From positions 8,659,179 to 8,723,178 of the forward strand of contig CM038228.1 in assembly GCA_021442155.1 (NCBI GenBank): DNA of 64,000 bases, read 5' to 3'. Shown here piece by piece: positions 4,021 through 50,473 of this stretch. The stretch's first letter is position 1. Every line of letters starts with the position of its first letter. A program made the translations under genes and the position numbers. Below the pieces are notes generated by a model. That model did no database searches. It was given only the letters and a program-made list of their open reading frames with translations, and was not told where the DNA came from. This DNA comes from Cymbidium sinense (lineage: Eukaryota; Streptophyta; Magnoliopsida; Asparagales; Orchidaceae).

Positions 4021-7000
4021 CAAACCTATTTTCTCAACATACCCAACATATCCAAATTCAAAAAATCAGCCAAATGACCATTCTACCCCTAGGCCATAGA
4101 ACAAATTTTGGTCAAATCCATGGGGAATTTGGTCAATTCCTCTACATACCTACTTGATTCTATCCTATTAGGTTGAGTAAACCCTATGGAGGGTGGTGCA
4201 CCCAACCCAATGGGTTTGGGTCAGCCCAACTTGACCCAAGGCCAAGCACATGGCTCACACATGCGAATCATGCTCACTCAATTTGAGCACACGGGGAGTT
4301 ACCATTCCACTCATCTAGCCAAACTGACCATGTGCAAGCCTCTAATAGATCAAAAAACCCACTGCCTTAGGTCAATTGGATCAAAATGGCTAGTGAAGCT
4401 TTGACTTTTCGATTGCCTAATGGGGAGATATACTCTAATTTAATTCACACACACACATCGACATTGGGAAGCCATATCTCCCCTAATTCAACTCAATTCA
4501 CACACACTATCAATTGAAGCATAGGAAGCCAGCAGAGTGATTCTAGAGTGATCCTAAGCTCTCTAGAGGGAGATTAAATTTCCATTCTCGGTTTTCCTTA
4601 AGCAAAACATGGGAGCTCCAAGGATTTGCCAACTTCCACTACACTCAAATTCAACCAAATTCCCTTTGCACACTCCCTCAAGGGATCAAGTCGAGCTTGC
4701 CCAACCTCTTTCCCAAGTTCCAAAGGCAAGGGGAGATTCACTTCAATCAAAATCGAGCTCACTATGAGGAGGTTGGTCCATAGAGCTATCCACTCAACCT
4801 CAAGTGCTAGAACTTTCACCAAAGCTCTCAACTAGATGAAGCTTCCGGGAATCGAGCGTCGGTGAGGTTAGACATTTTTGATCACTTAACTCCATGTGTG
4901 TTGGTCCGTGAAAGAAATGTTAATGGCATGAAGTTTCAAAAAATGTGCTTGCCATTAGGGTTAGATGGTGTGCAAAATTTCATTCCACCGAGCTCAATCT
5001 CGGATCAAGACCTAGAACTTGACTCCATGGATCACAAGCGTTGGATAGATCTTCGCCGCCCATCCGCATTTTGGATGGAACGAGATTAAACATATGCTTT
5101 AGATCTATTTTATCATTTTAAAATTGTGGATTAAATCATTTCAATCCTTGATCAATGGTAGAAGCAAAGATAGCGCCACCATGCACAGATGTGATGTATC
5201 TGAGGACGATGCGTAAAGCACGCCGAGTCACCGCATGTGGCCATTGGATTAAGGAATTAATTAGAGCTTATTTAATTCTAATTAATCATATAAACTTCTA
5301 AAATTCATATCTCCACCTAGAAAATCAAAAAAATATGAGGTAAATTGCCACTTAAAGATAATTCAACCTAGAATATTCTAAAATTGATTTCAATAGATTT
5401 TGAAATGTATCTTTCTTGATTTTGGGTTTTCTTGGGAATGTTGTTTCATTAATTATCCTTTAATTAAGCCATTAATTAATCTCAATTTCTTGAGTATATT
5501 TTGGGAATGACTGCCTCCCCTAATTTTTGGGAATTATTGGTGGCTAAATTGGGGAAATTACTATTTCATTCCTAATCACCCCTTAATCTAATTAAAACCC
5601 TAATTAATTTAGTAAATTAATCTTTATTTAATTTGATTAAGGTGTTATAATGAATAGGAGGTTTAGGAATAATTTTGGGCAATTAAGTACTTAAACCCCT
5701 TCCATTCCTTAATCCTCACTTCATTAATTACTCCTTAATTAATTTAAATTTTAAAACATTCTAACTCAACTAATTTGTTTTGGGTAGGTGCTTAGGTGTT
5801 CAATAACCTAAGTAGTTATAAATCCAAACAATTCACATGTAAATTGAAAGTACTTAAATTAACCCTTAGTTTAATTAATTTAATCATGAGCCAAATTGAA
5901 CTTTCTTTCCTAGGTTAATTGTCACATTTAAATTTGTGTGATTTTATGTCATCTCATCTCATAATTATTGGATTAACTATGGGTGGTGTGTAAGGATTTA
6001 ATACACTTTAATCATTTTAACCTAACTAAAGCATAAAATTGATTTAATCATCTAAAAATTGAACAAAAATGAACACATGTGGTAATTTTAATATAAATTG
6101 CATCACATTTCTCAAATTTAAATCAAACATAAACATAAAACAAAAAAAATGAAACAAAATCACAACAAACTTGATTTATTTAAACTTATCTCATAAGATT
6201 GTCTTTGGAATTAATTAGATGTGAAAGTATTTACATACTTTAATCATTTAATTCTTTCCAAGATGCTAAATATGTGTCATATGATTTCACATTCATGCTT
6301 TCAAAATCAAATTTAGAAATGAAAATATTTTATGTCAAATTGCATATTTTAAAATAGAATATGAATCTCTTATCACTACTTCCAAATTATTTTCAAAATA
6401 TATGAATCAATTATCAAAACAAAAGTGTGCTACTTATAGTTTCATAAGCTTGCATGTTAAATATAAAGATGTATAGTGTAGTTTTTCCTTTCCTTCATAT
6501 TTACATATTTGAATAAAAATTTGGAAAGTGTAAAATTTCATTTGAAAAGAAATCAATAACTTTTGAATCCATTCTTATTCATCTATATGTTATCAAATAG
6601 AAGGAATTACATACATGTTAAAACTAAACAAATAAAAAAAACTTTGTGTTTCCTTTTTCCATTTACTTTTTTTACATATGCTTTCTATTTGAAAGTGGTA
6701 TATTAGTTTACATTAACACTTAAGTATCCCAAGTAGGTCAACCTTACATAACAATGGTGAGACTCACTTATTCTCTCTTATACATTCATGTGTGTATGTG
6801 AAAAAAAAAGAAATCCCTTTTCTACTTAATGAAAATCATCCTCATAAACATCCAAATTTTCTTAAATAAGTTACTTAGCATGCATCATAAAGTGTGTTAA
6901 ACATTTCCATTTGTATGTTTAGATATGTTTAAGAATTATTCATATGCATGTTGTGACTAAAAGAAACAAGTGATATGTGTTTAGGGATTTCATTTCACTT

Positions 7001-7287
7001 TTTTAATCTTAAAATGCCTTTCTTTTTTTGAAAGTTTATTAAACCATTCTAAACTTAATTTAATTAAAAAACACATAATAAAATCAAATCAAAACCAAAG
7101 TCAATCTACTTAGAAATTACTTAAGGACTTAAAAAAGTTCTCTCTCTTCCCTTTATAACTTAGAAATTTATATTCATTTATAATCAAAAAACAAAATAAA
7201 ATTCAACCCAAAATCTAAAAATTAAATGAATTCCTTAAGTTGAAATTTCATACTTAGAAAATCTAACTTACCATTTAATCATACCAT

Positions 7288-10200
7288 ATTCTAATGATCA
7301 AACCTATTTCAAATTAGATTCTCAAAATTTATATTTTATATATAAGAAATTATATATAACTCTCAACCCCAAAATTAAATTCCAAATTTTGCTAAAATTC
7401 ATAAACCATTCATTTTTTCAAGTAAAACTTCAAATCAATTCTATTTTGATTTTCTTTATATTTAAATATTATATTAAATATATATAAACCCAATCAAAAT
7501 TCATCAAAATCCCATTAAAATTTTAAATTCCTTTAATGGATTTAACCAAAATTATGATTAAATCTTCAAATTCTTGAAATTTTCTCATGATTTATATTAT
7601 CATTTATATTCACATATAAAATGAAATATAAATTAAACCAAAAATCAAATTCAAAGATCAAACTAAAAATCAAATCCTAATTTTCATTAAAGGACTTAAA
7701 AATCAACTCAAATCAAACCTATTCAAACCTTGAGATTTTCTCTCAATTTATATCCCATTTATATCATGAGCTCATATATAAATCCAAATCCCAATTCAAT
7801 CAAACCCAAATCAAATCAAATTAAAATCAAATCCCTAAATTCATTAATTTTCCTTTGAATGAGATCAAATGAATCAAATCACTTCAAACTTGATTTTCAA
7901 AATATATTGTATTCTCATTTATATTTCAATCATAAATGAAATATAAATCAACCATCAAATCAACTCAAAAATTATATTTCAAATTAAAACCCATTAAATC
8001 CTTAACTTTAATGATTTAACAAATTATGATTAAACTCAAATTCTTGAAATTTTCATCATGATAAATTTATATCTCATATTCACATATAAAATGAAATAAC
8101 CAAAAAAAAACCAAACCAACCAAAATCAAACCAAATCAAATCAAATCAAATCTAAGTCTTTCAAAATTTGAACTTGCAAAATCACCAACATTTGCCAAAC
8201 CCATTTTTTTGGGTCAAAATGTGTCAAATCTGATCTAATAAATTGAACCAATGGGTCAAGTCCATCCCAAATCATTTGTGGAACTTAAAGCCTCAATTGG
8301 CCAACTAGACCTAACCTAGCCCAATTGACCTTTAACCCAACATGACCTAAAGGGGTCATGTTGAGCCAAAATTGAACCTAACTCAAATTGATTGGAAACA
8401 AAGATACCAATCCACTTCATATGACCAACCAAGCCTAAACCCACCCTTGTCCTAACCGAAATAGGTCAAATGGGTCAAATAGGTCAACTTGACCCATTTG
8501 ACCTAAATGGGTCATATGAGCCAAAACCTAATCTATACCAAATTGAGCCAAACCAAAGGCACCAAAACATTTCAAATGTTCATATGAACTTGATCCAACC
8601 CTTGGTTTGACCCAATTTGACCTATTGGTCAACTTGACCCATGTTGACCCATTTTGACCTAAATGGGTCAACATGAGCCAAACCCTATCAAATGGATTCC
8701 AAATCCATTGAAACTTGACCCAACCTATTTTCTCAACATACAAACATACCCAAATTAAAAAATATCAAAATGACCATTATACCCGTAGGCCATAGAACAA
8801 GGTTTGGCTGCCATCAGTATTATGGTCATGCACTCATCACAAACACTTGAGGCTCTCCTAAAACATCAAGGGGACCTAGTGATGAGTGACATAATGAGTT
8901 TGGGTCAGCCCAGTTGGCCCCAAGGCCAAACTCGACCCCATGGGTCAAATTAGCAAATTCAAACTCCCTCTTCCACTCAATTGAAAGCACATGGGAGGTT
9001 GGCAATCCACTCAAGGCCTCAAACCGACCATGTGCACACTCCTAACAGCTCAAACAACCATCCCATTGTGGTCAATTAGATCAAAATGATAAGAGCATTG
9101 CCGTCTGATCCTTCAAGGGGGAGATATACTCCCCCTAAATAAACTAAAATGCATCATTCTTAATTGGATTGAGTGCTAGTGAGACTTAGGAGCCATCAGA
9201 GAGTGATAGCAAGCATCCTAAAGCTCTTGCCAATTCCCCATTCTCAGTTTTCAAACAGTGGAAACAGGGGAGCTCCTTTGAATTTCCAAATTCTTCCACA
9301 CTCCATTTGGATCCAATTGCTGCACACTCCATCGGAGGATCTTGAGCTTGGCTCCCTAAAGTTCCAAAGGCAAGGGGAGACCTAGCTTGATCAAGATCGA
9401 GCTCAAAGTGAAGTGGTGTTGGTAGGCAATTCACTCAACCCTAAGGTCTCCAAACTTCAGCAAGGCTTCATGTCAACTAGACAAAGCTCCTCTAAGGGAA
9501 TCGGGCATCGGTGATCACCTCCGAGGTATGCCATTTTCTGACCCTTAAACTCAATGTGGTGTGGAGCTTTGTGAAAGAAATAGTTATCCCATAGGATTTT
9601 GACTATTAGATGTGATCTAAGGTTTATGTTGATGGTGTGGGTTGAGTTTCATTCCAATCTGAGCTCAATCGAGCTTGGATCAAAGCTTCAAAGATGGACG
9701 GATCACATTCTCCATGAGCTTTGGCAGGGATGAATCACTGGCCATCCATCCACATTGTTTGGATGGATGAGATTATCCACACTTTTTATAAGTCGTTATC
9801 CATTTTATAAACTGTGGGGAGATCCCTGGCCGTCCGATCTTTGATCGACAAGAGATCAAAGCCCCGCGCAGCCCTAAGGTGACTTTTAAGTGGATGCTCA
9901 CCGTGATGATGCGTAAAGCCGACCCGCCGCCGCGTGCCATGAGTAGAGGGATTAGTAAGGGATTTAATTAAATGCTTATTAATCCTTAGATCTTCTAAAA
10001 TTCATAACTAATTCAATTAAAATCAGAAAAATAAAAGAAAAAAATGCTATGGATAGATAATTTCATCTAAAATAAATTTAAATTTTTTCCAATGCATTTT
10101 GAATTCTCTTTTTCTATGAATTTGGATTTCTTTGGGAATGTTAATTAGCTAATTACTTTCTAATTAAGCCATCAATTAATCTCAAACTTATAGAGTTTAT

Positions 10201-13200
10201 TTTAGGGGATGACCTCTGCCTCCTCTAATTTTCTTGAGATTTATTGAGGCCTTGATTAGGAACATTGCTAGCTCATTCCTTAATTACCCATTTCATGCAA
10301 TTAAGGGTAATTAAGATGTAATTAGTGGATTTTCCCTATGTTTAAGTTGGATTAAGGTTAGATCCAGTGAGAAAGGGTCTTAGGGAATAATTTTGGAGTA
10401 TTCCCCTTAAGCTATTCCCTAAACCCCCTTTTCTTTCCTTAATCCCTTCTTAATTAAGGGTTAATGCATTAATTATTCCTTTAAACAATTTTCAAAAATT
10501 CTAAAAATCTCCAGAACTTAATTAATCTACCTTGGGTAGATGCTTAGGTTTTTAATAGCCTAAGTTCAATTAAGGAAATTAGACCCCCTTTCATAAGTGT
10601 GAAAGGGGTGTTTTAGAAGCACTTAAGCTTAATCCCTTAGCTTAATTAACTCTTAATTGAGAGCCAAATTGCATTAGGCCTTTCATTAATAGGTGTATTG
10701 CAAATTTAAAGACCTTATGGGTTTTATGTCATCTCATTAGCTCATAATTACTTAGTTAATTTTTCTAAGGTGGTGTAGGGTTAATTAAGCCATTTAATTC
10801 ATACATTAACCTAATCAATACTTAAAATGAATCTAATGAACTAAAAATTAAACTAAAATCTAAAACACATGTGGGAATGGGTTAAGGACAGCAAACCCAT
10901 CTCACTTTCAAAATTAAATCAAACTTTAAACCAAACAAAATCATTTTGAAATTTACTTTGATTTATTCTAGATTTTCTTATTCCTTAAGAATGTCTTTAG
11001 GATTTAAGTAAAGTGAGTTTGTTTACATGCTTTCATTTCTTTGGATCTTTCCCAACATGTTAAGTTGTATGTCATGTGATTCATGCATTCATAATTTCAT
11101 GTTTCAAATTTTAAAATGAAAATTGTTTACTTTATATCAAATGTGCATGTGTTGGCTAAAGTAAAATATGAATGGCTATTATCACTACTAAATCCAAATT
11201 ATTTTCAAAACTTATAAATGAAATATCAAATATGAAAGTATGCTACTTATACTTTATAAGCGCATGTGAGATATTATGAAGGTATGCTTACTATAGGTTT
11301 CCCTTCTTTTCTATGTTGGCATAATTTTGAATAGGAATGTTGGTGAGATATGAGGTTCATTTGAAAAGGACCTAATGCTCACCTAATTTCATACCCTATT
11401 CATCCATATGCTCTCACCTAAGAAGGGTTACCTTCACTTACATACATAAATTGCATAAATAAAATGAATTCATTAAACAACTTTTGCATCTTCCTTTTCT
11501 ATTTCATTTCTTTTATATACATGTTTGTACTTAAGGAAAGTGGTATATTAGTCCGGAAAACCCGAGGTTATGAGGCTTTAAGTAGCCAGTAGGTCTTGTA
11601 CCTTACACCTCGATTAACAATGACTTGTACTCACTTATGCCTTTCTTACTTTTATGTATGTATGTGAAATTTTGGATGAGGAAAACCTTTTCTACTTAAG
11701 AAAAATCATGCATATTTAACTTCTAAATTTTCTTAAGTGGATTACTTAGCATGCATCATAAAGTGTGTTACCTATTCTCACTTGCATGTATAGATATGCT
11801 TATGGTCCATCCATATTTATGTTATATATATGTTGGAAAGAAATGAAGTAATGCATGTCATGTGATTTTTGATTCATTTTATTTAATCTTAAAATGCCTT
11901 TCTTTTTGAATAAGTTTCTTTAGGGTTTATCTAAACTTAGGATTGAATAAAATATGTAATTAAAACATTCACCTAAATGAAACTAAAATGTGACTTACCC
12001 TTAGAAGTTACTTAAGGATTAGGAAGGAAAGAGAAGTTCTCTTTCTTCCCTCTTTATAACTTAGTAATTAATTGTAGGTTTCACTCAAACCAGACAAAAC
12101 ATGAAATAAAAAATAACCCAAAACACTTAAAAAACTTAAATGAAACTCTCCTCTAAGTTGAACATATCTTTCACACTTAGAAAACTTGAACCCAAAATCC
12201 TAAGCTAAGCATGCCACACAAACCTCCAAAGCACACACATTAGCCTAAGTCACAAAGTCACAACTTCTAGCTTTAGGTTAGGTCGGTGCATGGCATGATG
12301 TCTTGTTTTATTTTTGTGATGAATGTTTTATACTGGATGATAGGGTGTATGCTCATAGAATGAATGGTAGGATGCTTAGTCTAAATTATTCTTTAAGGGA
12401 TTGTGCTAAAGGGGTGCTATCATAAATAAAAATATAAATGCTTCTTAGTTGCAGGTGCTTATAACCCTTAGCATAATCCATAGGCTAGGTGGACTTGAGT
12501 ACCCATGTGTGGAGTACTAAGTCCAATATACATGCTTGGGATTTGTATGGTGTGATTTAACTAACCCTTGTTTTACAAGTATTAGTTAAATTTATGCTTT
12601 CCCTTTTCATGTAAACAATTTGTATATTTAGGATTTGGAATGATTTGTTATGGGGGATTAAGATGAACACTGATCATAAGTCTCAGAGCACCAACCATGC
12701 AACCATCCAAAGGAAGACCAAAGAAGAAAGAAAGAAAGAAAAAAAGAAAGAAGAGAGAAGAATGAAGCTTGAAGACCCCCCATAATAATGAATTCTTTTT
12801 GCTTAAGTGTAATTTAATTCATTTGTTGGGTTGTATAAGGGTAGAGCTCAGCTACCCAATTTGAAATTTTTTGGGTTTGTGTGGTGGTGCCCGACCACAA
12901 TGTCCTTTTATTCTTTTTGTGCTAATTTTATAAATTGGTTGATGTTTCTTTAACTTAAGCATTAAGTGGCATTCCTCTCGTAGTTTATTCCTTGCTTTAT
13001 GCATGGCTTGGATGAGGATTAGGCTCTTTAGGGAAAAATAAATCTTTTACCCAACTTAACAAACTCAAAATTAAAATAAGAAACTCATAACCTAACTTAA
13101 AGCTTAGGATTAAAATCAAGATAAAAGAATTAGTAACCCCTTAGCTGGATGAGTTTTTTGTGGTTACTTTATAACATCATGCACAAATACATATTGTCTC

Positions 13201-14352
13201 ACTCTTGATTGGAGGGCTTCCATCTTAGTAGAGAACTTCGTCTTGACCTTTGACGGCTGTGGTGGAAACTCACCTCCAAAAATTCTAGCTTATTTTGGCC
13301 AATAATCTATTTCTCATGCATTAGTCATAAAATGTCCTATTAGCTGAGTCAAAAATGATAATAAAATGAAATTTGAAATGCATTAGATTTAGGTCATTGA
13401 AGCATGTCCCTTTACATGATCTAGTCTCTTGAGTGAGTTTAAGGACTTAGTTTCTTTCTAAATAAAATAGCCCAACTTATCTTGCATAAAGACTTTCCTA
13501 AATGTATTTAAAATCATAGGAGGAGTTAGTTGACCACCCCAAGGTGGTTGTAAGTCTATTTTGGTTTCCTCTCTTGTGGAGGCAAACCAATTACCTTTTT
13601 TTTGCCTTAGATTTAGGTTGTGCTTTCGGCCCTCGCCGAAGCTCCCTAGATTTAGGTTCTGGGGTTGCTTTTCCATTTTGTGGGCCATAAGTATAATTCC
13701 TCACCTCGTAGGCATTTCCTTAATCTTGTATTAAGGAATCTTAAGTCCTAAATTTCTAATGAAAAATACAACTCAAACAAACTAAATAAATTTCTAAACT
13801 GTAAAGCCCAAATTTAGGATAGTTCAAGATGTTCGCTAGGTTTCCGAGCATCGTGAGCATCTGCTACTTATTCCTATTTTGGCTTGATAATAACTCCCTC
13901 TTTTGATCAATCCCATTTGATATTCAAACATAAACTAATCGATTGATAGTCCTTTCATATTGAAATCTTTAGAAATGATCATTTACCTTAATCTAGAGTT
14001 TTCTTAAGGGATCTGCCCTTAGATGTAATTAACTATGGGGCTTTGTAAACACTTAACAAATCCAGTTTATAATAAACTTTACTTTTCATGTAAAGTAGAG
14101 AAGAATATCCGTACATATGTAGACCCCATCATCCTTAGAAGTCCTTATTGAGGTGATTGGTTCCATCAAAGGGTAGTGATTTCTATCTTTCAAGATAGTG
14201 TATTATACCTTGATGACATACCCGATCACCTGAATAAGTACATCTGCGGATCTATGTGGCATATTACCAAGACAAATTTTTGTAAGGGTGTCCTTCTTCT
14301 CTTCTCCCCATAGATTTGAAAGGTGACTCCCTTATAGGAATTTTTCACCACA
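7288..14352 (+). mobile_element. LTR copy nested inside the 5' LTR (solo-LTR-like, ~7.07 kb)
   Basis: It repeats the LTR order a second time: 170-bp-type repeats (7410-8160), TTGACC block (8200-8720), CpG-retaining block (9830-9950), AT-rich tracts, TATA-like block (12831) and U5-like region. It ends in CA at 14352. The host sequence on either side is continuous when it is removed, and 5-bp flanks ACCAT (7283-7287) and ACCAC (14353-14357) look like a target-site duplication. Its first ~120 bp do not match the canonical LTR start, so that end is degraded or rearranged. Confidence 0.65.
12831..12857 (+). promoter_or_regulatory. Conserved TATA-like block of the nested LTR
   Basis: TTGTATAAGGGTAGAGCTC is followed by a CTACCC that can pair with GGGTAG. 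It is one of four copies kept in four LTRs while the surroundings have diverged. A purine-rich AAAG/GAAA tract lies just upstream (12720-12770). It may be the LTR core promoter (TATA box) about 1.5 kb before the LTR end. Confidence 0.45.
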
Positions 14353-16485
14353 ACCACACAAACCTCTAAAGCACACATATTAGGCTAAGTCACCACTTCT
14401 AGCTTTAGGTTAGGGTTTTGATGTTTGCTTTTGTTTTGTGATATATGTTTTAATCTGGATGTTAGGGTGTATGCTCATAGAATGAATGGTAGGATGGTTT
14501 AGTCTAACCATTATCTTCTGTAGGAGATTTTGCTTAAGGGGTGCTATCATAAACAAAAATATAAATGCTTTTGTTATGTAGGTGCTTATACCCCTAAGCA
14601 TTATCCATTAGGCCAGGTGGACTTGAGTACCCATGTGTGGGGTGCTAAGTCTAATATACATGCTTAGAATTTCTGTGGTTTGTTTTAGCTAATCTCTATT
14701 TTGTAGGTGTTAGTTAGATTTTCATTCTTTTTCTTTTCATATAATTTTTGTAATTAGGATTTTGGAATGATAGTTATGAGGATTAAGATAAGCATTGGTC
14801 ATAAGATTATATCTTATGTACCACGTGAAGTCTTTGGAGCATCAATCTTTCAACCATCCAAAAGAAAGAACCAAATAAGAAGAAGAAAAGAAGATGAAAG
14901 AAAGAAAGAAGAATGAAGAAAGAAAGCTTGAAGACCCCCATAATAATGAATTCCATGCTTAATTATATTTAATTCATTTGTAATCCGGGTTGTATAAGGG
15001 TAGAGCTTGGATACCCAATTTATTTTTGAGTTTGTGCGGTGGTACCCGACCACAATGGCCTCTTATTCTTTTACGATTAGCTTTATAAATTGATTGATGA
15101 TTTGTTTAGCTTGTGCATTAAGTGGCATGCTTTTCCTAATTTCTTCCTTGCTTTATGTATGGCCTGGATGACGATTAGGCTCTTAGGAGAAAAATAAATC
15201 TTCTACCAAATTTAACAATTCAAAACTAAAAATAAAAACTCATAACCTCACCTAAAGCTTAGGCTAAAAATCAAGATAAAAGAATTAGCAACCCATTAGC
15301 TGGATGAGTACTTCTTTTATAACATCATGTACAAATGCATATTATTTTCACTCTTGATTGAGAGGGCTTCCACCTTTCTAGAGAAACTTGGCTTAATCTA
15401 TGAGAGCCATGATGGAAACACACCTCCTAATTGAATACTCTCATTATGCCTGAAGTCAAAATAATCCCCAAAATGAAAATAAAATGAAATTTGAATTGCA
15501 TTAGATTTAAGTCATTTGAACCATACCCTTACATGATCTAGTCTCTTTAGGGAGTGAGTTTAAGGACTTAGTCAATTTCTAAATAAATAATGCCCAACTA
15601 TCTTATATAGAGCATTTGACTTGCCTACATGAATTTAAAATTGTAGGAGGAGTTAGTTGGTGGCCACCCCAAGTTGTGTAAGCAAGTGGGTGATTTGTTC
15701 TCTTGTGGAGGCAAACCAAATACCCATTTTCTCCTTAGATTTAGGTCATATTTTTGGCCCTCGCCAAAGCTCCCTAGATTTAGGTTTTGAGGTGACTTTT
15801 TCCCTTTATGGGCCATAAGCATAAATTCTCACCTCTTAGGCATTTCCATAATCTTGTGTTATGGAATTGTAAGCCCTAGCATTCTAATGAAAATGCCACT
15901 CAAATGAACTAATTCAATTTCTAAAATATAAAGCCCAACCATAGGGTAGTTTGGGGTGCTTACTAGGCTTCCTAGTATCCTAAGCATCCCCTACTTATTC
16001 TCATTTGATAAGAACTCCCTCCTCTTGATCAATCCCATTTGATTTTCCAAAAATAAACCAATCGATTGATAGTCCTACCTATTGAAATCTTTAGAGACAA
16101 TGATCATTTACCTTAATCAAGAGTTTTCCTAAGGAATCCCCATTCCTTAGGATGTAATTAGCTACGGGGGCTTATCCCTGTAGGGAACTTAATGAACCCA
16201 GTTTAAAATAAACCCTGCTTTACTTTTCCATGTAAAGTAGGGGAAGAATCTCTAGTGCACTTTAAAGACCCAACATCCTTAGGAGTCCTTACTGAGGTGA
16301 TTAGGTCCATTAAAGGGCAGTGACTCCTATCTCTCGAGATAGTACACTATTCCTTGATAATGTACTCGATCACCTGAATAAGTACACCTGTGGATGTACG
16401 TGGTATCCCAAAAAGATGAATTTTTATATTCTTACCTTTTCACCCTACAGATGGAAGGAAACCATATAAAATTTTTTCTAACCCA
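14353..16485 (+). mobile_element. 5' LTR of Tat element 1, right part (to LTR end)
   Basis: It resumes the interrupted LTR at 'accacacaaacctct' and aligns to 35886-38045 to the end. It contains the purine-rich tract (14870-14930), the TATA-like block (14990), a small inverted repeat around 16330-16350 ('tctctcgagata'), and ends 'attttttctaaccca', identical to the 3' LTR end at 38045. The primer-binding site follows 10 bases later, which fixes the LTR boundary. Confidence 0.8.
14990..15017 (+). promoter_or_regulatory. Conserved TATA-like block of the 5' LTR
   Basis: TTGTATAAGGGTAGAGC is followed by a slightly altered partner (ATACCC), in the same position relative to the purine-rich tract as in the other LTRs. 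Candidate TATA box and start region for element 1 transcription. Confidence 0.5.
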
Positions 16486-16495
16486 TTGATTTTTT

Positions 16496-16514
16496 TAGCA
16501 ACTCCGTTGGGGAT
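16496..16514 (+). other. Primer-binding site of element 1 (tRNA-Arg type)
   Basis: The sequence TAGCAACTCCGTTGGGGAT closely matches the TGGCGACTCCGCTGGGGA-type site known in Tat/Ogre elements, complementary to a tRNA-Arg 3' end. Differences are mostly transitions expected from decay. It lies ten bases after the LTR end and begins the internal region. The tRNA assignment is from family knowledge, not from a search. Confidence 0.7.
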
Positions 16515-16657
16515 GGTTCCTCTCTCCATCTTTGGTAAATGATCGTTGTCTCTAAGCATGATAGTGGGTTTATACTTTTGCATGAATCCAAGACTATTCT
16601 TCTTATCATTGGCTCTTAGCTTATTTCATCCTTAAGTTAAGCTAGCCAACATCTTTA

Positions 16658-16693
16658 GGTTTTAGGACCTCACCTCGTGTTGGTCTTAAAACC
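16658..16693 (+). other. Leader stem-loop downstream of the PBS
   Basis: GGTTTTAGGACC (16658-16669) pairs with GGTCTTAAAACC (16682-16693) over 12 positions with one G-T pair, enclosing a 12-base loop. Another short pair, AAAACCC/GGGTTTT, begins at its 3' edge. Element 2 keeps only part of the region near 49975-50000. This could be a genomic-RNA leader structure; the role is inferred. Confidence 0.45.
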
Positions 16694-17030
16694 CCCGTTG
16701 GGTTTTCCAATGTGTAAAAACAAAAATGATCTAAATAAAAAAGAAAATATTTAAAGACTTCCTCCTTATCATTTTTATGATAAAGAAATGTTCATTCTAA
16801 AATAATAAAGACAAATAAATTCTTCCTTAAAAAGAAAAAGAATCTTGCTTTTTTTAAAAAAAGCACTCTTTCAAAAATGCACTTAATAAAATGTTTTGCA
16901 TAAAGATTTTCCTAAATCATCTTCATCTAACAATATTTATGATTGTTATATGTGAAGATCATCTTCATAATAATAAAATTCCAACAATCATAATCTTTCA
17001 AAAAAGCACAAAATTTGAAGATGAGCATTT

Positions 17031-19000
17031 CCATTCAATACATCTAAATGTGTTGGATGGATGTTCTATCTTCAAACCAAAATCACAATTTTGAAATTTC
17101 ACTCAACACATTCCACATTTGTTGAGGTGGAATTCTCACCTTTCCAAAAGCATATATGAAATCTCTCCATTCAATATACTCACATTTATTGAACGGAGGT
17201 TTCATTTTCAATCACAATCAAAAGTAAATTTTTCCATAGCACACATGAAATCTTGCCATTCAATATATTCAAATTTATTGAATGAAGGTTTCATTATGAA
17301 ACAAAATTAATAATGAACTTTCAAAAAGCACATATGAAACCTCTCCATTCAATATACCCACATTTATTGAATGGAGGTTTCATTTTCAATCACAATCAAA
17401 AATAAATTTTTCCAAAAGCACACATGAAATCTTGCCATTCAATATATTCAAATTTATTGAATGGAGGTTTCATTTCAAAAAAACAAAATCAAGAATGAAC
17501 TTTCAAAAAGCACATATGAAATCTTCCCATTTAATATACTAAAATCTATTGAAAGGAGGTTTCATTCCCAAAACAAAATCAACATAATTTTTTTTTAAAA
17601 GCACATATGAACATCTCCATTCAATATACCCAAATTTATTGAATGAAGATTTCATTCCCAAACAAAAATAACATCATTTGAAATCCCACTTAAACATATC
17701 CCATATATGATTAAGTTGGAATTCCCTCTTCCAAAAAAAAAGTAATAGTCACACCCAAGACAAATTTTCACATTTACAAAGAAAAATTAGATTGACTTCC
17801 ACTTCTACATACCCAAATGTGTTGAATGGAAGTCTTCTTCTAAAAAAATCAAGACTTAACAATTATACTTTCAAAATTCAAAACACATTTGGAACTTCAT
17901 TTAGCATACTCAAATTTGCTAAGTGAAGTGTCCAAATTCAAACCAAAAAATTTTCAAACACATTTGGAACTTCATTTAGCATACTCAAATTTGCTAAGTG
18001 AAGTTTCCAAATCCCAAACCAAAAGTTTTTCAAACACATTTGGAACTTCATTTAGCATACTCAAATTTGATAAGTGAAGTTTCCAAATTTAGAACCAAGA
18101 AATATTCAAAACACATTTGGAACTTCATTTAGCATACTCAAATTTGCTAAGTGAAGTCTCCAAATTCAAAATAAAAAATTTTCAAACACTTTTGGAAGTT
18201 CACTCTTTAGCATACCAAATTTTCCAAAGAGAAGTTTCCATTTTCAAAACAAAACTAAAACATAAAATTTCAAACACATCTTTTGGAATTTCATTTAGCA
18301 TACTCAAATTTGCTAAGTGAAATTTCCCTTTCACAAAATTAAGTGGAACTTCATCTTTAACATACCATATTTGCTGAAGTAAGGTCTCCACTTTCAATCA
18401 AAAAGAAATCAAAACCAAATGAAACACATTAGAATTCCCTTAGCATACTTAAATTTGCTAAGAATCCTACTTTTTCAAAAATCAAAATATCCAAAACAAA
18501 TGAAACACTTTAGGATTTTCTTAGCATACTCAAATTTGCTAAGAATCCTATTTTAAAAAATCTTTCAAAAAAAAAACACACTTGGGTTCTTCATTTAGCA
18601 TATGCAAATTTGCTAAATGGGAATTCTAACTTTCAAAATCAACAAGAAATCACAAGACAAAGCAAACCAAACCAAAAGGAACAATTGTTTTCAAACACCT
18701 CACTTAGCATACCCAAATTTGCTAAGTGAGTGAATTTCAAAATTTCAAATCAAAATAAACTAATTGACCCTTACTTTAACATACCCAAATTTGTTAAAGG
18801 AAAGGGTCCTCAAATCAAAATCCGATTTCAAACATGAACCTATGGAAGCATCCATTTAAAAATATTTGAATGCTTCAACATACCTAAATTTATTGAAGTT
18901 GGATTCATATTCAAAATTTTCTCTTCCAATCAAAATTCTAAATCTTCTTTAAATCCATTTGAACCCCACTTAACACTTCCAAGATGTTGGATGTGGGTTC
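17031..19000 (+). repeat. Array of about 24 tandem hairpins with a near-constant 10-nt loop
   Basis: About 24 inverted repeats follow each other every 60-100 bases between the PBS and the first reading frame. Loops sit near 17041, 17109, 17177, 17266, 17355, 17445, 17537, 17627, 17680, 17810, 17907, 17982, 18058, 18135, 18213, 18301, 18363, 18446, 18527, 18601, 18710, 18782, 18881 and 18976. The loop is nearly always 10 nt, consensus TAYYCAAATT. Stems differ between units yet stay paired: CCATTCAATA/TATTGAATGG, CTTCATTTAGCA/TGCTAAGTGAAG (one G-T), CTCACTTAGCA/TGCTAAGTGAG, CCCTTACTTTAACA/TGTTAAAGGAAAGGG. The best stems reach 19 bp with a one- or two-base bulge. No reading frame spans the array. 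Confidence 0.85.
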
Positions 19001-19101
19001 AAATTTTAAATTCAAATTCAAAAATCAACAAAAATCTGATGCAAGTTTATTTTCAACATTGCACTCGCTCAGTGATAGTCTAGTTTAGTAGTGTTGATAC
19101 T

Positions 19102-20711
19102 ATGGCAGCTTCCCAGAAGTTTGTGTTCACTTTCCCATATGGCATGGACTTGGCCTTGGATCAGGCCAATCTCCCTCGAGCTGATCATACCCACCTTATC
19201 CATTTTGGCAGGGGATTGAGGGAGTGAAGATCACCTGTGAGGGCACTCCCCTCACAACTATCAGTAGGACTGCGGTGGCCTGGCAGAAGCTAGTCATCCA
19301 GATCAATCTACCTTCAGATTCTGACATCACCTCATTGAAGAGGAAAGCAATGGCAGTCCCACCAATTTCAACAGAGATAGTGGCTGACTGACACATGGCC
19401 TGTCCCCGCTAGACCCACTCTTTGGCACCCTCTAAGGGCAAGGCTCCTCTGATTCCACATATTGCCTCCCCAGCCTTTGAGGTTGGGTTTAGTTCTCACT
19501 CTGCTCATCCTACCAGGACACAAAGGAGAAATAAAAACCACATGATGAAGCGGTATCATACTAGGATTGTCAGGGAGATGGAGGCCGCTACGTGGTTTAG
19601 TAGGAGGAACCTACTTTGATCACCTCGCTACAGAATCGCCATCCTCTCTCTGATACAGAGGATGCTAGGAGGATCCTCACTTCACCTCCACTAGTGGTTC
19701 AGCACCGCCCCTCGCCATCGGGAGCAAGAGGTTGTACCTTCGAGTCTTATGCCACTGGTGAGCTTATGGATTCGTGAGTCCGGACCTCAATTTGATTTGA
19801 GATCCATCATCCCCTGTAGTGTGGGGAAACATCTGCGACAAGAGAGGGCCAGAGAGGCCCATACATATGTTCATATCACCAGTAGGGAGAGGCAGATGTT
19901 CAGTTGCTTGTTGGCAGCTTCTGCACTCATCGATTTTCCAACAGCAGCTACTAGCCGACCATACAGATAGCATCCTACTTATTGGGACCAGTCATCACAG
20001 GAGGATAGCTTCTTCTCATAGAGTGGTGGTCCACCACACGCTCCACCCTCGCCCCGCCATCACCAGTTCAAGTCACAATCTCTAGTTCCACAGAAGGCCA
20101 TGAAGGCCATATTCGGGGAGAAGCGTACCCCATTGGTGATCCAACTATGGTCGAGGGATCCTACTCCATCTACACTACTACCTGTGAAGCTCTCGCCGAC
20201 CTTACCCTAGTGGTGGTGGAAGGAGTGGCGACTCAAGCATAGTGGTCATTCCTTCACCAACACCGACATCGATTTGGAGATGGTTACTACAACTGCAGAG
20301 AGAGCAGATGATAGCCCTGTTGTATCGATGATAGTAGAGCCTCCTAGGAATGTCACACCTTTCAGAGTTAGTGATAGTCAAGAGTGTATATCTTCTAGTG
20401 AGTACAATCCTCATAGGATTGATTCTCTAGCAGGGGAGGTTTAGTGCCTCTCAGTACATGACAGTGATCACATTAGTCAGCCCAAGTCATATGTGCCTAT
20501 TCAGATTGATCATTCTTTAGATGAGATAGTGGCTCATTATTTCATGGAAAAGAAGGAGATATTAGGATATGATTGGTCTGATGAAGAAAAGATTAGCTTT
20601 GATCTCAATGAAGATGATTTATTGGGAGACTGGAGTGCATTGATACATCGGGTTCTCTCCTTTGAGAGTAGCAGGCTATGGAAGGTGATGATGCTGAGCA
20701 AGAAGACATAG
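19102..20711 (+). pseudogene. Upstream reading frame before Gag, element 1 (unknown function, decayed)
   Basis: I do not recognise a named domain. From an ATG at 19102 the frame reads a KFVFTFPYGMDLALDQ start, then frameshifts and stops scatter it over several frames. The matching start in element 2 (50474) is KLFFSFSSGADLALDQ, and later segments also correspond, for example a 'KRTPLVIQLWSRDPTPST' stretch here against 'RLVIRLWPKDPTSSTP' there. Two diverged copies keeping the same residues implies it was once coding. Ogre elements carry an extra ORF upstream of gag, which fits; an N-terminal extension of Gag is the alternative. The 3' part (20493-20711) is acidic, with a DWSDEEKISFDLNEDDLLGDW run. 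Confidence 0.55.
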
Positions 20712-20955
20712 CCCACTCATATCAAGACCTCCTAGCATAATTAAAACAAAAAGATGAAAAGATAGATAGGATGGCAAAGCAACGTGAGGACTTGTTAGAG
20801 TCTCGATTCAAGCACCAACAGTTCATCCTACGCTTGAGATCGCAGTTAGTGCATGTCTTGGAACCAACCAAGACTTTACCTCTTGAGCAAGGTAGCACTA
20901 GCATGTATAAGAAGGTAGTGGAAGTACCTCCATATAAGAAAAAGACATAAAATCT

Positions 20956-21800
20956 ATGGTTGAGCAGCAAGTGAAAGAAGCATTGGCTCAAGCCCGAGGG
21001 AGATCATCAGTTCCAAAGGGTAGACCCTACCCGGAGGAATTTGATACCATCTAGTACCCCAAAGGTTTTTTGCAACCATATTTCAAAAGCTTTGATGGCA
21101 GTGGAAACCCGAGGTAGCATGTTGCACATTTCAAGGCTAGTTATTGCAACGTCGATGGTAGCGATGCTTTACTTTTCTATCTCTTTGTCAGCAGCTTAAC
21201 AGGGATAGCATTTGATTGGTGGTGAACTGCCCAATGGTTCAGTGAAGACTTTTGTTGAGTTAGAGCAACTCTTCATCAAGAGGTTTGCTGGAGCTCAGCA
21301 AAGGATGACTGTTGGCGATCTCGTTGTGGCCCAACAGAATCCTATTGAGTCCCTCATTGATTACATTCTCAGGTGGCATAACTTGAGTATGAAATGCAAA
21401 CCACAACTATCTGAATAGCATGCCATCGAGATTCTACTTAAGAATATCCATGGCCTAGTCGCCTTCATGCTCAAGGGTTTCACCATCAAAACCTTTGAGA
21501 AATTAATCAACAAGGTGGCTAGCTTACAAGGAGAAGCTAAATAGTCACCTTTCTCTGACCAATCAACTAAGCAGAAGTCACAGAAAGATTTTAATAAGAA
21601 GCATAGGGTAGTTATAGCAGTAGATAAGGGAAAATAGCTTGCTAGAGATCAGTCTGAGAGACCATGACCTGCCTCCACCTCCTCTACCACCATCGAGGCA
21701 GCCCTACCAGCCTCCACAACAGCCTCCATGGCCAGCACCGTCGCCTCCTCAGCATACCATCAGCAGCGGTGACACACATACCCGCCGCCAGGTAGCAATG
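20956..21800 (+). pseudogene. gag: Gag capsid region, element 1
   Basis: Gag forms the particle of the retrotransposon. The frame starts MVEQQVKEALAQARG, then keeps a GRPYPEEFD segment and a retrotransposon-gag core at 21212-21640 (SVKTFVELEQLFIKRFAGAQ, then MTVGDLVVAQQNP, SLIDYILRWHNLSMKC). A proline-rich linker lies at 21670-21770. It is broken by TAG stops at 21052, 21115, 21416, 21542 and 21637 and by frameshifts. At 21052 and 21416 element 2 has CAA (Gln), indicating CAG to TAG decay. Homology to Tat-type Gag is clear; no zinc knuckle is seen. Confidence 0.85.
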
Positions 21801-21829
21801 GTCCACCTACTCTTTTAGATAAGCTTAAC

Positions 21830-22300
21830 AAACCTTATTTTTTAAGAGGGAGGTAATCAGGAAGATCTTTAAGAACCTCTTAAAGAATCCTGATTTTTAG
21901 CTACCCGAACCTAAGAGATCGGAGGAAGTAGGCAAAAGCCATGATCCTAACTTTTTCCCCTACCACCTTATGCTAGGTCATGTTTTGGAGGATTGCTTCA
22001 CATTTAAGGATTGGCTTGAACATAGCTTCAAGACCGGTGCTGTAGTTATCCCAAAGGAATACCTTATGGAACAACCTTCCAGTTCCATTAGGGTAATCCT
22101 TGGGGATACTTGTGATCCTACCAAAATCAAAGAAGGTTGGGATATCTCCTTATCGAAAACCTCTAAAAAATCATTAAGAAGATCAAGAGCTTTCCTTGCA
22201 GGTGCCCGAGTCAGCTCAAACCTCCAATATCAAGGAAGGTTTGCAAGTTTCCAGTGCCAACTCAAGGAACTAGGGAGATCAGACTGTGCACCGGGATAGC
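21830..22300 (+). pseudogene. gag: Gag C-terminal segment, element 1
   Basis: It keeps the LGHVLEDCFTFKDWLE motif typical of the C-terminal part of Tat-lineage Gag, followed by VVIPKEYL and a lysine/serine-rich tail. The Cys and His spacing (PYHxMLGHxxxDC) suggests a metal-binding knuckle-like element, with the first Cys now lost here but present in element 2 (CPYHSMLGHILEDC at 53161). The frame is open from 21970 to 22299 and then stops. Confidence 0.75.
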
Positions 22301-24689: not shown

Positions 24690-25330
24690 AGTAGTCCATA
24701 AGCTAGCAATAGATCCTAATGCTACCCTTATTAAGAAAGCTCCTAGACTCATGCGACAAAAAATCAAACAACGTCATTTTTGAGGTCAAGAAACTAATCG
24801 ATCGGCTTCATCAAGGAAGAAAAAATGCCTACCCGGTTATTAGTGTCATCCTAGTTAAAAGAAGAATGGCCAAATTCGCATATGCAATTTCAGGGACTTA
24901 AATAAGGCATGTCCTAAGGATGAGTTTTCTCTTCCTATACCAAAATTAATGGTGGACATTGCCTCATCTCATGCAATATTTTCTTTCATGGATGGGTCAT
25001 CTAGCTACAACCAAATCAAGATGTCTCCGAAAGATGAAAGAAATACCACTTTTCAAACCCCAATCATAATCTTTTGTTATAAGGTCATGCCATTCGGCCT
25101 TAAAAATGCTTGTGCTACATATCAATGGGCCATAACTCAGATCTTCAATGAATTCATCCATCATCAGGTTGAGTGCTATGTTGATGATCTAGTAAAAAGC
25201 GAGAAAAGGAAGACCACATCTTTGACTTGAGGGTAATTTTTGAACGGTTAAGATAATATAACCTCAAAATGAATCCCCTGAAGTGTGCATTCAGAGTAGC
25301 TTCAGGGAAATTCCTTGGGTTTGTTGTTTG
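24690..25330 (+). pseudogene. pol: Reverse transcriptase, element 1
   Basis: Copies the element RNA into DNA. Visible blocks are EVKKLID (about 24785), NFRDLNKACPKDEFSLPIP (24888-24944), FSFMDGSSSYNQIKM (24979-25023), KVMPFGLKNACATYQ (25081-25125) and the catalytic YVDD (25177-25188). The N-terminal fingers are frameshifted; from 24949 to 25230 the frame is open. The usual FMDGYSGYNQI appears with Ser in place of Tyr/Gly. Ty3/gypsy RT beyond doubt. Confidence 0.9.
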
Positions 25331-25479
25331 ACACTGGGGAATATAGGTAGATCCTGAAAGGATCAAAGCTATCTTAGAAATGTCACCTCCTAAAAGTCTA
25401 ACATAACTCAGATCCTTCCAAGGATGACTGGCGTATCTAAGATGCTTTATCTCCAACCTATCGGGGAGATGCAAGCCAT

Positions 25480-25860
25480 TTTTTGCACTTGTCAAAAAGG
25501 ATGCCAAGTTCAACTGGGATGATAAGTGCCAGTATGCCTTTGAAGATATCAAGCAGTATTTGGTGAAGCCGCTAGTTTTAGCAGCCCCTATCCCAGGCAG
25601 GCCACTCATCCTCTACACTACTATATTGGATGTCTCTCTCAGTACTCTTTTGGCCCAAGACAATGACGAAGGAAAGGAAATCACTCTCTACTATCTCAGC
25701 CTTCATTTGATTCCTGTTAAAGCAAACTATCCACCTATTAAGAAACATTGCCTAGCTTTGATCGTTGCTTCCCAAAAGCTACGGTACTACATGCTTTCTC
25801 ATAAGGTGAACTTGATCTCCAGAACAAATCCACTACAGATCTCATGACACGGCCAATGCA
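25480..25860 (+). pseudogene. RT-linked RNase H, element 1
   Basis: Removes the RNA strand during reverse transcription. It follows the RT connection (FGLKLN-type region frameshifted around 25230-25480). Open frame 25560-25847 reads PLILYTTILDVSLSTLLAQ, EGKEITLYYLS, ANYPPIKKHCLALI and LRYYMLSHKVNLISR, the normal order of the gypsy RNase H. A stop ends it at 25845, just before the RIDPL-type continuation. Confidence 0.85.
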
Positions 25861-26039
25861 ATCTGGATGTTTGGCACGTTGGTCCATGATACTCTTGTAG
25901 TTTGACATCACATTCGTACCCCTCCATACAGTAAAAGGACATGCACTAGCAGATTTCTTAACAGCACACCGCTTGCTGATTCTCGCTTAGTGACAATCTC
26001 CCTGATGAACAAATCATGAACTTAGGGGAGGTCAGCAAC

Positions 26040-26460
26040 CACCGATGGGAGATGTATTTTGATGGTGCAGCTTCTTTTCACAAAGGAGAAGCACCATGAT
26101 CTATTCTCCCAGGAAAGACAGGAGTAGGAATAGTTCTTCTAACTCCAGACCGCAATGTGATGAGATTCTCATATTATCTTTCCAACCCCTGCACCAATAA
26201 TGAAGTTGAGTATGAGGCTTTGATTGTCGGTCTGGAGTTAGCCATCACCATCAGGCTTTGGGGATTCCCAGTTGGTCATCATTCAGATTATTGGATCCTA
26301 CAAGGTTCTCAAACCCAAGCTTCGTCATTACCATGAGTATACCATGAAGCTGTTGGCCCAGATCCCTGAAGTCACCATCTACAAGGTTCCCCATGGAGAG
26401 AACGTAGTAGCAGATGCCTTGGCTAAACTTGCCAAAGAATTGGCATGTCCGGAAGATGAG
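26040..26460 (+). pseudogene. Additional archaeal-type RNase H, element 1 (Tat hallmark)
   Basis: A second RNase H after the RT-linked one is diagnostic of the Tat/Ogre lineage. Seen are MYFDGAAS (Asp codon 26061-26063), GVGIVLLTPD, NNEVEYEALIVGLELAI (26197-26247), GDSQLV with its Asp at 26263-26265, and HGENVVADALAKLAKEL (26394-26441). All four acidic/His-type landmarks are still readable, in two frames split by a small deletion near 26250. It may take over RNase H function in these elements. Confidence 0.85.
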
Positions 26461-26539
26461 TCCATTTTAATATGGGTACAAAATAGACAAGTCTTATCCT
26501 TTATTGATTGTGAACTCATCGAGAGACTTTCTCGTGAAG

Positions 26540-27820
26540 GAGAGGTTACCGTTTCCAAAAAGGATGAGGATCTGGATTGGAGGCAACCATTCATAGACTA
26601 TTTGAACACTAGAAAACTACCTCAACAAAAGTCACAAGCCCATCAGGTGAAACAGAGAGCTCTCTCCTATGCTTTCATTGATGGAACCCTGTATTGCCGG
26701 TCCTTTAACCAAATGTGGTTACATTATTTAGACAAATATGAAGCTCATGACATTGTAATCAAGGAATATTCAGGTCTATGCGGAGCACATCAATCCGATC
26801 CGAAGATGAAGATGAAGATCAAGCAACTTGGATACTACTGGCCTTCGATGATTACAGACTGCATGGATGTGGTTAGGAGATGCCATCAGTGTCAGGTGCA
26901 CGGTATGTCCTCCACCAACCACCCAACATTCTACACCCTACATTAGCCTCATTGCCATTCGAGTGTTGGGGTACCGACATTGTGGATCTATTGATCCTCC
27001 TTCTTTCAAGGGGCATCAGTTCATCTTAGCTGCCACCAACTACTTTTTCAAGTGGAAATCCCACTCAGAGATGTCACAGCTCAGCATGTGCTTCAATTTT
27101 TTAGGAACCATATTGTATCTAGGTTCAGGGTGCCTCGACAAATTATATTTGATAATGGTACTACATTCAAAAGCACCAAGATCAATAGCTTTTCCAGAAG
27201 ACATGGTATCGATTGGAGATACTCCACCATTTACTATCATAGAGCAAATGGTTTAATAGAAGCATTCAACAAAACTCTCATCCAGATACTGAAGAAGACT
27301 CTTGATGACAACAAGAGACAGTGGCATGAGTAGTTGGTTGAAGCCTTGTGGGCCTACCGCACCACATACCGAACTCCAACTTAGTCTACCCTATTTTCCT
27401 TAGTGTATGGGTCTGAAGCCATTCTACCTTTAGAAGTTTAACTCCCTTCACTAAGGATAGCATTGGGTAGCAAGATCACTACAGAGTAGAATGCAAAGTT
27501 GCGGTTAGAAGAGCTCAAAGGTTTGGAGGAGAGTCGCCTACGGGTGTGCCAGAACCTTGAGTTGTACAAGGCCAAAATGATTCAAGCTCACAATAATCTG
27601 GTCCACCCTAGGTCTTTCTGAGTAGGAGAACTTGTGTTAGTCCTAAGGAGACCAATTGTTGCCCGTCAAAATATGGGAGGCAAGTTTGAACCCACTTGGG
27701 AAGGCCCCTATATCATAGAGAAGGCCTACCAAGGAGGATCTTATTAGCTTATTGATTGTAAAGGGGAACACCCGATGCTTCCAATTAATGGGCTCTATCT
27801 AAAGAAATATTACCCATGAA
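26540..27820 (+). pseudogene. Integrase, element 1
   Basis: Inserts element DNA into the genome. The zinc-binding N-terminus is intact in frame (H...H then CHQC, 26720-26910). The core continues in other frames: WGTDIVGSIDPPSFKGHQF with Asp at 26976-26978, IFDNGTTF with Asp at 27151-27153, and ANGLIEAFNK with Glu at 27259-27261, giving D,D(35)E spacing. The C-terminal part has ALWAYRTTYRTPT, YGSEAILPLEV and KFEPTWEGPYIIEKAY. No chromodomain is seen. TAG stops at 27331, 27382 and 27487 and a TGA at 27619 break it. Confidence 0.9.
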
Positions 27821-38045: not shown

Positions 38046-38129
38046 CAATTTTTTTTTGCCTTTTTTGGGGTAACTATGTAAAATGGATTGTGTTGGTTAG
38101 TTGTAATATTTCAGCAATCAGATAAGTAG

Positions 38130-40615: not shown

Positions 40616-40620
<5 letters not shown>

Positions 40621-40671: not shown

Positions 40672-40673
<2 letters not shown>

Positions 40674-49815: not shown

Positions 49816-50473
49816 GTGGACTCCACTAAGGATTGTTCCTCTCTTTATCTTTAGTAGTCAATCATCATCTAAAAGTATTGATAGTGGAATTATATTTCAT
49901 ATAAGCCTAAGGCTATCTTTCTTTCCATCAGATACTTTGCTTATTTCATCCTTAAGCAAGGATGGCCAACATCTTTTAAGTTTTCAGACCTTCCAATAGG
50001 TAAAAAAATTAACTAAATAAATTACCCAAAATATAAACAAAACAAAATCAACAACCTCTTACCACTAGCTTGGAGAAGCAAGGTTCATTCAACATTCTCC
50101 CAAAATTCCAATGAAGTCCAAAGCAAAAGCAAAAGGAAGCTTCTCCAAAATTCCAAACTTCCCCCACAAACAAATGAACCCCATTTAGCATAATCAAATT
50201 TATTAAATGAGGATTTCCATTCAAAATCAAAAAATCAATCAAACAACAACAATCAAAAGCAATAGTCTCTTCTCCAAAATTTTCAAAATCTCTTAAACAT
50301 ACCAACAAACCTCATTTAGCATAATCAAATTTGTTAAATGAGAGTTCCAATTCAAAATCAAAAGTTAAGTCAAGTCAACAAAAATTAAAGCAAAAGTCTA
50401 ACTCCATGTCTCTTTCAATAGTGCAGCAGACATACAAGCCCCGCTCTTCTCTTTCCTTTCTTCAGTCAACATT
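49816..50473 (+). mobile_element. Leader of Tat element 2 with remnant primer site and two hairpins
   Basis: TAGTGGACTCCACTAAGGAT (49816-49835) corresponds to the element 1 primer site but has diverged. The following 'tgttcctctctttatcttt' and 'cttatttcatccttaag' phrases match 16513-16640. Two hairpins with the loop TAATCAAATT sit at 50180-50215 and 50310-50345 (stems around CCCATTTA/TAAATGAGG and CCTCATTTAGCA/TGTTAAATGAG), the same type as the element 1 array. Confidence 0.65.

Follow-up and report, generated by a model that had tools for sequence, protein, structure and literature searches.

A tandem array of 24 covarying hairpins in the leader of a decayed LTR retrotransposon

The leader of a decayed LTR retrotransposon (element A), lying in the 64-kb stretch of DNA analysed here (the window), carries 24 tandem hairpins in which the loop stays nearly constant and the stems change from unit to unit with their two arms in step. 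The array stands before the first reading frame, its loop is conserved and its arms covary, and two units of the same kind are present in a related downstream element (element B). We consider it likely that this is a selected hairpin array acting in the sense RNA.

A sequence-only reading of this DNA had described about 24 inverted repeats between a primer site and the first reading frame, and we were able to locate 24 units singly between the primer-site-like sequence (~16495) and the first frame, which has its first ATG at 19102 (Table 1). The span it had assigned to them, 17031–19000, is close to the 17017–19004 found with full predicted stems. Its description of the individual units was also borne out: the loop is nearly always 10 nt long (19 of the 24 array units), TAYYCAAATT serves as a loop consensus (exact in 11 of the 24), and the arm pairs that it quoted are present in the array, including ACTTCA/TGAAGT in u11 and ATTTCA/TGAAAT in u16, which differ by a C-G to T-A double change. 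When element B is included, the loop measures 10 nt in 21 of 26 units and 9 or 11 nt in the remainder, and A[AC]AT is present in 23 of the 26 loops. The linkers are A-rich and nearly G-free (A 0.49, G 0.04).

Table 1. Coordinates of the hairpin units and of the element features around them, in positions of the window. Stem lengths are predicted.
Feature	Coordinates	Strand	Description or basis
Primer-binding-site-like sequence TTAGCAACTCCGTTGGGGATGG	16495..16516	+	At the 5′ LTR end or immediately behind it; putative primer site
Leader, primer site to array	16517..17016	+	Alignment
Tandem array, 24 covarying hairpins	17017..19004	+	Hairpin scan, unit-by-unit location, folding, covariation tests
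u1	17017..17073	+	25 bp
u2	17092..17138	+	17 bp, 11-nt loop
u3–u8	17156..17655	+	Subfamily, arms CCATTCAATA/TATTGAATGG, period ~90
u9	17680..17724	+	17 bp, 11-nt loop
u10	17787..17843	+	21 bp
u11–u14	17887..18165	+	Subfamily, arms CTTCATTTAGCA/TGCTAAGTGAAG, period ~76
u15	18193..18240	+	Decayed, 12 bp, 9-nt loop
u16	18285..18326	+	u11–u14 subfamily, with one C-G to T-A double change
u17	18341..18393	+	18 bp, 9-nt loop
u18–u20	18439..18626	+	Inner arms CTTAGCA/TGCTAAG and CATTTAGCA/TGCTAAATG
u21	18696..18732	+	CTCACTTAGCA/TGCTAAGTGAG
u22	18766..18808	+	Unit location and folding
u23	18867..18907	+	Weak
u24	18957..19004	+	20 bp, 9-nt loop
First reading frame onward	19102..22296	+	Putative gag region, possibly with an extra ORF before gag; stops and frameshifts
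RT, RNase H, second RNase H (RVT_3), integrase zinc domain	24859..26943	+	Pfam matches, in this order
b1, leader of element B	50181..50210	+	Inner 10 bp and loop
b2, leader of element B	50312..50341	+	Inner 10 bp and loop

Alignment within the window indicates that it consists largely of related LTR retrotransposons. In element A, the 5′ LTR extends to ~16496 and the 3′ copy to ~38055, giving an LTR of ~7.7 kb (30393–38055) with boundaries estimated from the alignments. Pfam places RVT_1 in 24859–25227, RT_RNaseH_2 in 25428–25844 and RVT_3 in 26100–26333; RVT_3 is matched again in 26242–26946 (E = 0.00046, slightly under the curated cut-off), at the end of which Integrase_H2C2 is found. A second RNase H (aRH) between RH and INT marks the Ogre and Retand elements of angiosperms in the available text of PMC6317226 and, because element A has this arrangement of the Tat clade, we class it as a decayed Tat/Ogre-type Ty3-gypsy retrotransposon, whose host is probably a flowering plant. 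Its LTR is far longer than the 315–1,194 bp given for Retand in the tabled recently active clusters of PMC11963269, and does not fit that range. The ORF listing contains no stop-to-stop ORF of at least 150 aa between pol and the 3′ LTR, where Retand has the antisense TRP28 ORF. The Ogre lineage has an additional ORF ahead of gag and an intron separating gag-pro from pol. In element A the first frame at 19102 is broken and a piece of this region, 21901–22296, gave no Pfam match; the one piece tested from element B (50402–50626) is likewise without a match. The sections of PMC6317226 available to us mention extra ORFs only as eORFs. Both elements are decayed, and the copy of element A is old, since its reading frames are broken and its two LTRs, compared over three aligned pieces, diverge at 5–15% of sites (0.0495, 0.084 and 0.147). 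Ahead of its 5′ LTR, positions 1–1988 resemble its own pol-to-3′ LTR region (aligned from 29494 on, and further upstream by eye), as might be expected in a tandem of elements with a common LTR. A second LTR-like stretch lies within the 5′ LTR at 7287–14352. On its far side the surrounding LTR continues with 4 bases of overlap (35885–35888 in the 3′ copy), a pattern such as would be left after an insertion.

Element B is 73% identical to element A over 3688 aligned coding columns, and 73% identity is also found between 16511–16670 in the leader of A and 49830–49991 in B. The leader of element B is only 660 nt long, with 6 ATGs, and holds two hairpin units at the equivalent place ahead of its first frame, one of which is weak (z = −1.06). 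As B has two units and A has 24, the array probably grew by tandem duplication, a comparison that covers the two elements of this window and hence one array of 24 and one pair. One exact pattern scan each of viral_contigs and genome_contigs for relatives outside the window returned no match, and the five pattern stretches from a protein-based scan of viral_contigs included no relative. Before the leader of B lie two successive LTR-like stretches, 39082–46764 and 47505–49811, the second without most of the middle part. An AT-rich stretch at 43905–44376 consists of a tandem repeat with units of ~90 and 109 bp that are 93–95% alike. The pieces downstream of element B (59183–62208) seem to belong to another kind of retroelement and include an RT match (61486–62208); at a guess, this is a LINE.

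Hairpins are far more frequent in the array than expected by chance. An ungapped mechanical scan of 17020–19020 yielded 24 hairpins with a score of at least 7, against 8.7 ± 2.6 in 60 dinucleotide shuffles (maximum 15); these are not exactly the 24 located units, as some fall within linkers. Restricting the count in the same region to hairpins with 10-nt loops gave 12, against 0.6 in the shuffles (maximum 4). In local folding the array reaches −217.5 kcal/mol per kb, whereas 12 shuffled versions reach −114 ± 5 (z = −21). When each unit in 17017–19004 is folded on its own with flanks of 24 bases, the predicted stems have a mean of 17.3 bp and a median of 18. Extracting and folding the units, as the sequence-only reading had proposed, placed 22 of the 24 at z below −2 relative to dinucleotide shuffles; u15 (z = −0.88) and u23 (z = −0.84) fold no better than shuffled sequence.

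Plant transposons supply small RNAs, and plant miRNA hairpins are, like those of the array, imperfect and small-looped. The array stems are shorter, averaging 17 bp, and it is the loop that is conserved instead of an arm, the arms differing in sequence from unit to unit. Moreover, Rfam 15 assigns no family above its gathering threshold within 16400–19200: there are six matches at E ≤ 1, all far below threshold, and the best (24.5 bits against a threshold of 53.5) is on the minus strand. That the hairpins are miRNA or siRNA precursors, a source of small RNAs as had been suggested, is therefore unsupported and appears extremely improbable.

Loop and stem are conserved in different ways. All 21 ten-base loops carry A2, A6, A8 and T9, and the mean pairwise identity among 21 units is 0.81 for the loops versus 0.69 and 0.65 for the arms. 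The same holds for the 8 divergent units with 10-nt loops (0.74 versus 0.63 and 0.59), and the closing A-T pair is retained in 26 of 26 units. Conservation is thus of the letters themselves in the loop and at a few stem positions, and mainly of pairing at the remaining stem positions. Since it is the loop that stays constant, on stems that vary as scaffolds would, a protein most likely recognises the loop. We also considered base pairing between the loop and a distant site and rejected it: the exact complement of TAYYCAAATT occurs on the plus strand once, at 42909, outside both leaders.

Covariation between the arms was analysed in an alignment of 26 units, comprising the 24 of element A together with b1 and b2. 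The 23 distinct rows (230 cells) contain 87.8% standard pairs, compared with 75.9% when the letters of the right side are shuffled, and 41 cells in these rows are changed on both sides versus 15.3 after shuffling. The covariation score is 0.48 against 0.255 in shuffles and at most 0.162 in slid registers. Two weaker measures separate less clearly, namely the number of stem pairs in which both sides have changed (7 of 10 versus 5.7, reached in 86 of 500 shuffles) and the number of further pair types (17 versus 14.4, reached in 19 of 500). When entire right arms are exchanged at random between the 26 units, the count of standard inner pairs falls from the observed 232 of 260 to 201 ± 4.9 (maximum 221) and that of Watson-Crick cells from 216 to 166 ± 8; the observed Watson-Crick count was reached in none of 20,000 permutations. 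The excess persists among the 13 most different units, with 107 standard pairs against 94.4 ± 3.6 (reached in 10 of 20,000) and 97 Watson-Crick pairs against 78.6 (0 of 20,000).

Because the units are related through duplication, we also simulated a tree-aware null, a home-made procedure rather than R-scape, in which columns evolve along each of two trees through as many parsimony steps as were observed. It yields 192–193 ± 12 standard pairs (maximum 224) versus the 232 observed over 26 rows, and 7–8 doubly changed cells (maximum 24) versus 46; neither observed value was reached in 1000 simulations per tree. Furthermore, since the registers had been picked by eye, the test was repeated with units anchored on the loop motif alone, using the pairing-blind pattern TA..YAMAT. 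(in which the final point is part of the motif). Its 17 hits in the leader of A average 9.18 of 10 possible pairs, with at least 8 in 15 of them, and the four hits in the leader of B have 10, 8, 4 and 2 pairs; the 81 hits outside both leaders average 4.05, with at least 8 in only 2. Across the 21 leader hits, 180 of 210 pairs are standard versus 150.8 ± 4.4 after permutation (0 of 20,000), and relaxing the motif, so that it has 33 hits in the leaders, yields 224 of 330 versus 164.6 ± 8.8 (0 of 20,000). An excess of covariation over controls, which the sequence-only reading had made a test of its proposal, is therefore seen against arm permutation, slid registers, letter shuffles and the tree-aware null. 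Together with the retention of hairpins at the equivalent place in the diverged element B, this supports its proposal of selection on RNA structure.

Paired changes would also arise as a mutational by-product, if hairpin-templated correction in reverse transcription or replication kept the arms alike with no function involved, and inverted repeats are frequent in the LTRs of this family as well. The LTRs provide a comparison here because correction at the DNA level would act on them too, and their hairpin stems should then show paired changes since insertion. Between the 5′ and 3′ copies of element A, 283 of 324 stem pairs are unchanged and 41 have changed, of which 30 are broken, 10 are one-sided but still standard and 1 is double; because the stems had been selected in the 5′ copy, the count is skewed towards broken pairs. 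These changes are mostly uncompensated, which argues against DNA-level correction; correction in reverse transcription may still have taken place. Bulges, which correction would erase, are retained in subfamilies of the array (two extra left bases in u4–u6, three versus one in u3 and u7, and one extra right base in u11–u14), a weak argument given that these units are recent duplicates. Between nearest sisters (u3/u5, u4/u6, u11–u14 and u18/u19) only 4 pairs have changed, none of them doubly, and correction would leave the conservation of the loop unexplained. We therefore regard this explanation, raised in the sequence-only reading, as disfavoured and improbable.

In 12 comparisons of similar units, some of which are used repeatedly, single changes prevail, which counts against the main reading. 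Of 41 changed pairs, 21 are broken, 11 are one-sided and standard, 7 are double and standard, and 2 are double and broken. Of the standard doubles, u12/u16 accounts for one; the other six come from u11/u20 and u12/u21, which are more distant pairs. Covariation thus belongs mainly to the older divergences among units, and the changes between unit pairs would fit slow compensation followed by decay after insertion.

We regard the sense RNA as the natural target of selection because the array is located in its leader, although sequence alone gives no proof of this. The 415 intended pairs have a mean predicted probability of 0.70 in the sense strand versus 0.36 in the antisense. Replacing the linkers by shuffled or strand-balanced random sequence leaves the sense value at 0.71, and complementing them lowers it to 0.58, so that a special insulating role for the linkers is without support and the sense advantage is nothing special. 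By folding energy, the antisense array is at least as structured (−243.9 versus −217.5 kcal/mol per kb), and the difference between G-T and A-C mismatches is unclear (16 versus 11 of 260 cells).

What the hairpins might do is best approached by analogy. The 5′ part of yeast Ty1 RNA contains determinants of Gag binding, packaging and dimerisation according to the available text of PMC4974528, and packaging in hepatitis B virus and a number of RNA viruses is promoted by repeated stem-loops that have a loop motif in common (PMC6281560 and PMC7612645, in the parts available). For these reasons we tentatively favour packaging as the purpose of the array, with the hairpins as a multivalent Gag site; the array has many stem-loops with a common loop motif and variable stems, as such repeated signals do. 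The 24 inverted repeats are predicted to fold as hairpins, with stems of 17 bp on average, in the genomic RNA of the element. Selection would keep the stems mainly as scaffolds presenting a loop of the form ~UANNYAMAUU, the part that is recognised, and the hairpins would jointly form a multivalent binding site whose candidate ligand is the element's own Gag/nucleocapsid during packaging. The array probably expanded by tandem duplication, with two units seen in B and 24 in A, and each added unit would then increase the avidity of the RNA in packaging. A counterpoint is that element B has just two units, one of them weak.

The sequence-only reading had named packaging, dimerisation, translation initiation and small RNAs as possible targets of selection; the last of these fell away above, loop-loop dimerisation is weak on energetic grounds, and the first three are inseparable by sequence. 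The same covariation and loop data would equally be expected if the ligand of the selected hairpins were a host RNA-binding protein or an export or stability factor, as in a nuclear export element; the sequence names no ligand. Placement in the leader favours packaging over such a factor by analogy, which is weak evidence, and we think a host ligand rather unlikely.

Another potential role is in translation, where the array would make ribosomes shunt or enter internally, or cause the leader to be spliced, thereby separating translated from packaged RNA. The 2605-nt leader of A holds 42 ATGs (~34 expected from base composition) and stable hairpins ahead of 19102, which makes plain scanning to the first frame implausible, and the plant element BARE has distinct pools of translated and packaged RNA (PMC3735527, available text). 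Translation control would not explain why the loop is conserved as the stems change, nor does it sit well with the 660-nt leader, 6 ATGs and only two units of element B; it is a serious alternative, which we nevertheless judge unlikely. Dimerisation of the genome through kissing of the AAATTT part of the loop is very unlikely. The 8-nt palindrome CAAATTTG, which extends from the loop into the edge of the stem, is present in 9 copies within the array and would form a self-duplex of −5.8 kcal/mol (predicted) once the stem edges were opened, and dimerisation of Ty1 RNA begins with kissing loops (PMC5454406, available text). The free loop, however, offers only four self-pairing bases, for which the predicted duplex energy is +1.6 kcal/mol in the four CAAAUU loops tested and, worse still, +2.8 kcal/mol in a CACAUU loop. 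A dimer initiation site of retroviral type, with a strong self-complementary loop, was rejected on these values for the five 10-nt loops tested.

With packaging as the preferred reading, the array can be set beside known systems. The lineage Tat/Ogre/Retand has short tandem arrays within LTR retrotransposons, and those described in the available parts of PMC7004042 and PMC11963269 sit in the 3′ UTR, after pol; the array of element A lies before the first frame and consists of hairpins with covarying arms. The word 'hairpin' is absent from the main text of PMC7004042. The packaging and dimerisation hairpins of Ty1 and retroviral leaders (PMC4974528 and PMC5454406, available text) are likewise stem-loops in 5′ genomic RNA but are distinct from one another, whereas element A has one type 24 times over, with a common loop and with kissing too weak by predicted energy. 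Closest in form are the packaging signals of single-stranded RNA viruses and hepatitis B virus (PMC6281560 and PMC7612645, available text), with many stem-loops sharing a short loop motif; those are dispersed through the genome and their binding to coat or core protein has been studied, whereas the array is in tandem in a leader and known only as sequence. The sequence-only reading knew of no named element type with this arrangement. That stands for the arrangement, as the titles and abstract openings of the open-access literature searched contained no tandem covarying hairpin array in a retrotransposon leader, but not for the host element, which is of the known Tat/Ogre type.

What we regard as new here is that the leader hairpins are serial and expandable; leader hairpins as such were already known. 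More generally, and more speculatively, LTR retrotransposons could carry an expandable packaging array, in which a hairpin with a fixed Gag-docking loop rises by tandem duplication from 2 to 24 copies and families compete for particles by avidity. If true, such an array would be a tandem equivalent to the packaging signals that lie dispersed in RNA viruses and, if copy number sets packaging strength, it would suggest how element families compete for particles. The 2-kb array with its internal covariation is a testable candidate, since its units are natural replicates of one hairpin and allow scaffold bases to be told apart from those that may be recognised.

Strong hairpins are also found outside the leader. 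The whole window contains 152 ungapped hairpins with a score of at least 9, against ~0.6 per kb in shuffles, and the LTR kilobases 2001–3000, 3001–4000 and 31001–32000 (8, 7 and 8, respectively) are as rich as the two array kilobases in 17001–19000 (9 and 7). The LTR segment 2230–4230 folds with z = −16.4. The leader is set apart from the LTR hairpins by repeating a single hairpin type whose loop is constant. A model derived from the 26 units recovers 25 of them at E ≤ 0.0078 (u24 at E = 0.15); minus-strand reads of units aside, its best non-unit matches are six LTR hairpins at 15.7–16.8 bits (E = 0.78–1.4), which is only suggestive of LTR and leader hairpins being the same feature. The LTR copies contain tandem units of ~170–180 bp at 2250–2770 and 30656–31194 with two hairpins each, CTCATTTATAT/ATATAAATGAG and CTAAGTCCTT/AAGGACTTAG, the first of which is a weak match to the leader model (16.8 bits, E = 0.78). 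TTGACY, which we take to be the W-box core, occurs 198 times in the window versus 83 ± 9.5 in shuffles, with 30 occurrences in 3001–4000, and is clustered in the LTR copies at 3031–4375, 8212–9075, 31522–32758, 39402–40523 and 47982–49054. Many of these motifs are in inverted pairs that form hairpins, and many of the strong hairpins of the window involve inverted TTGACC motifs; the LTR is possibly a WRKY-responsive promoter.
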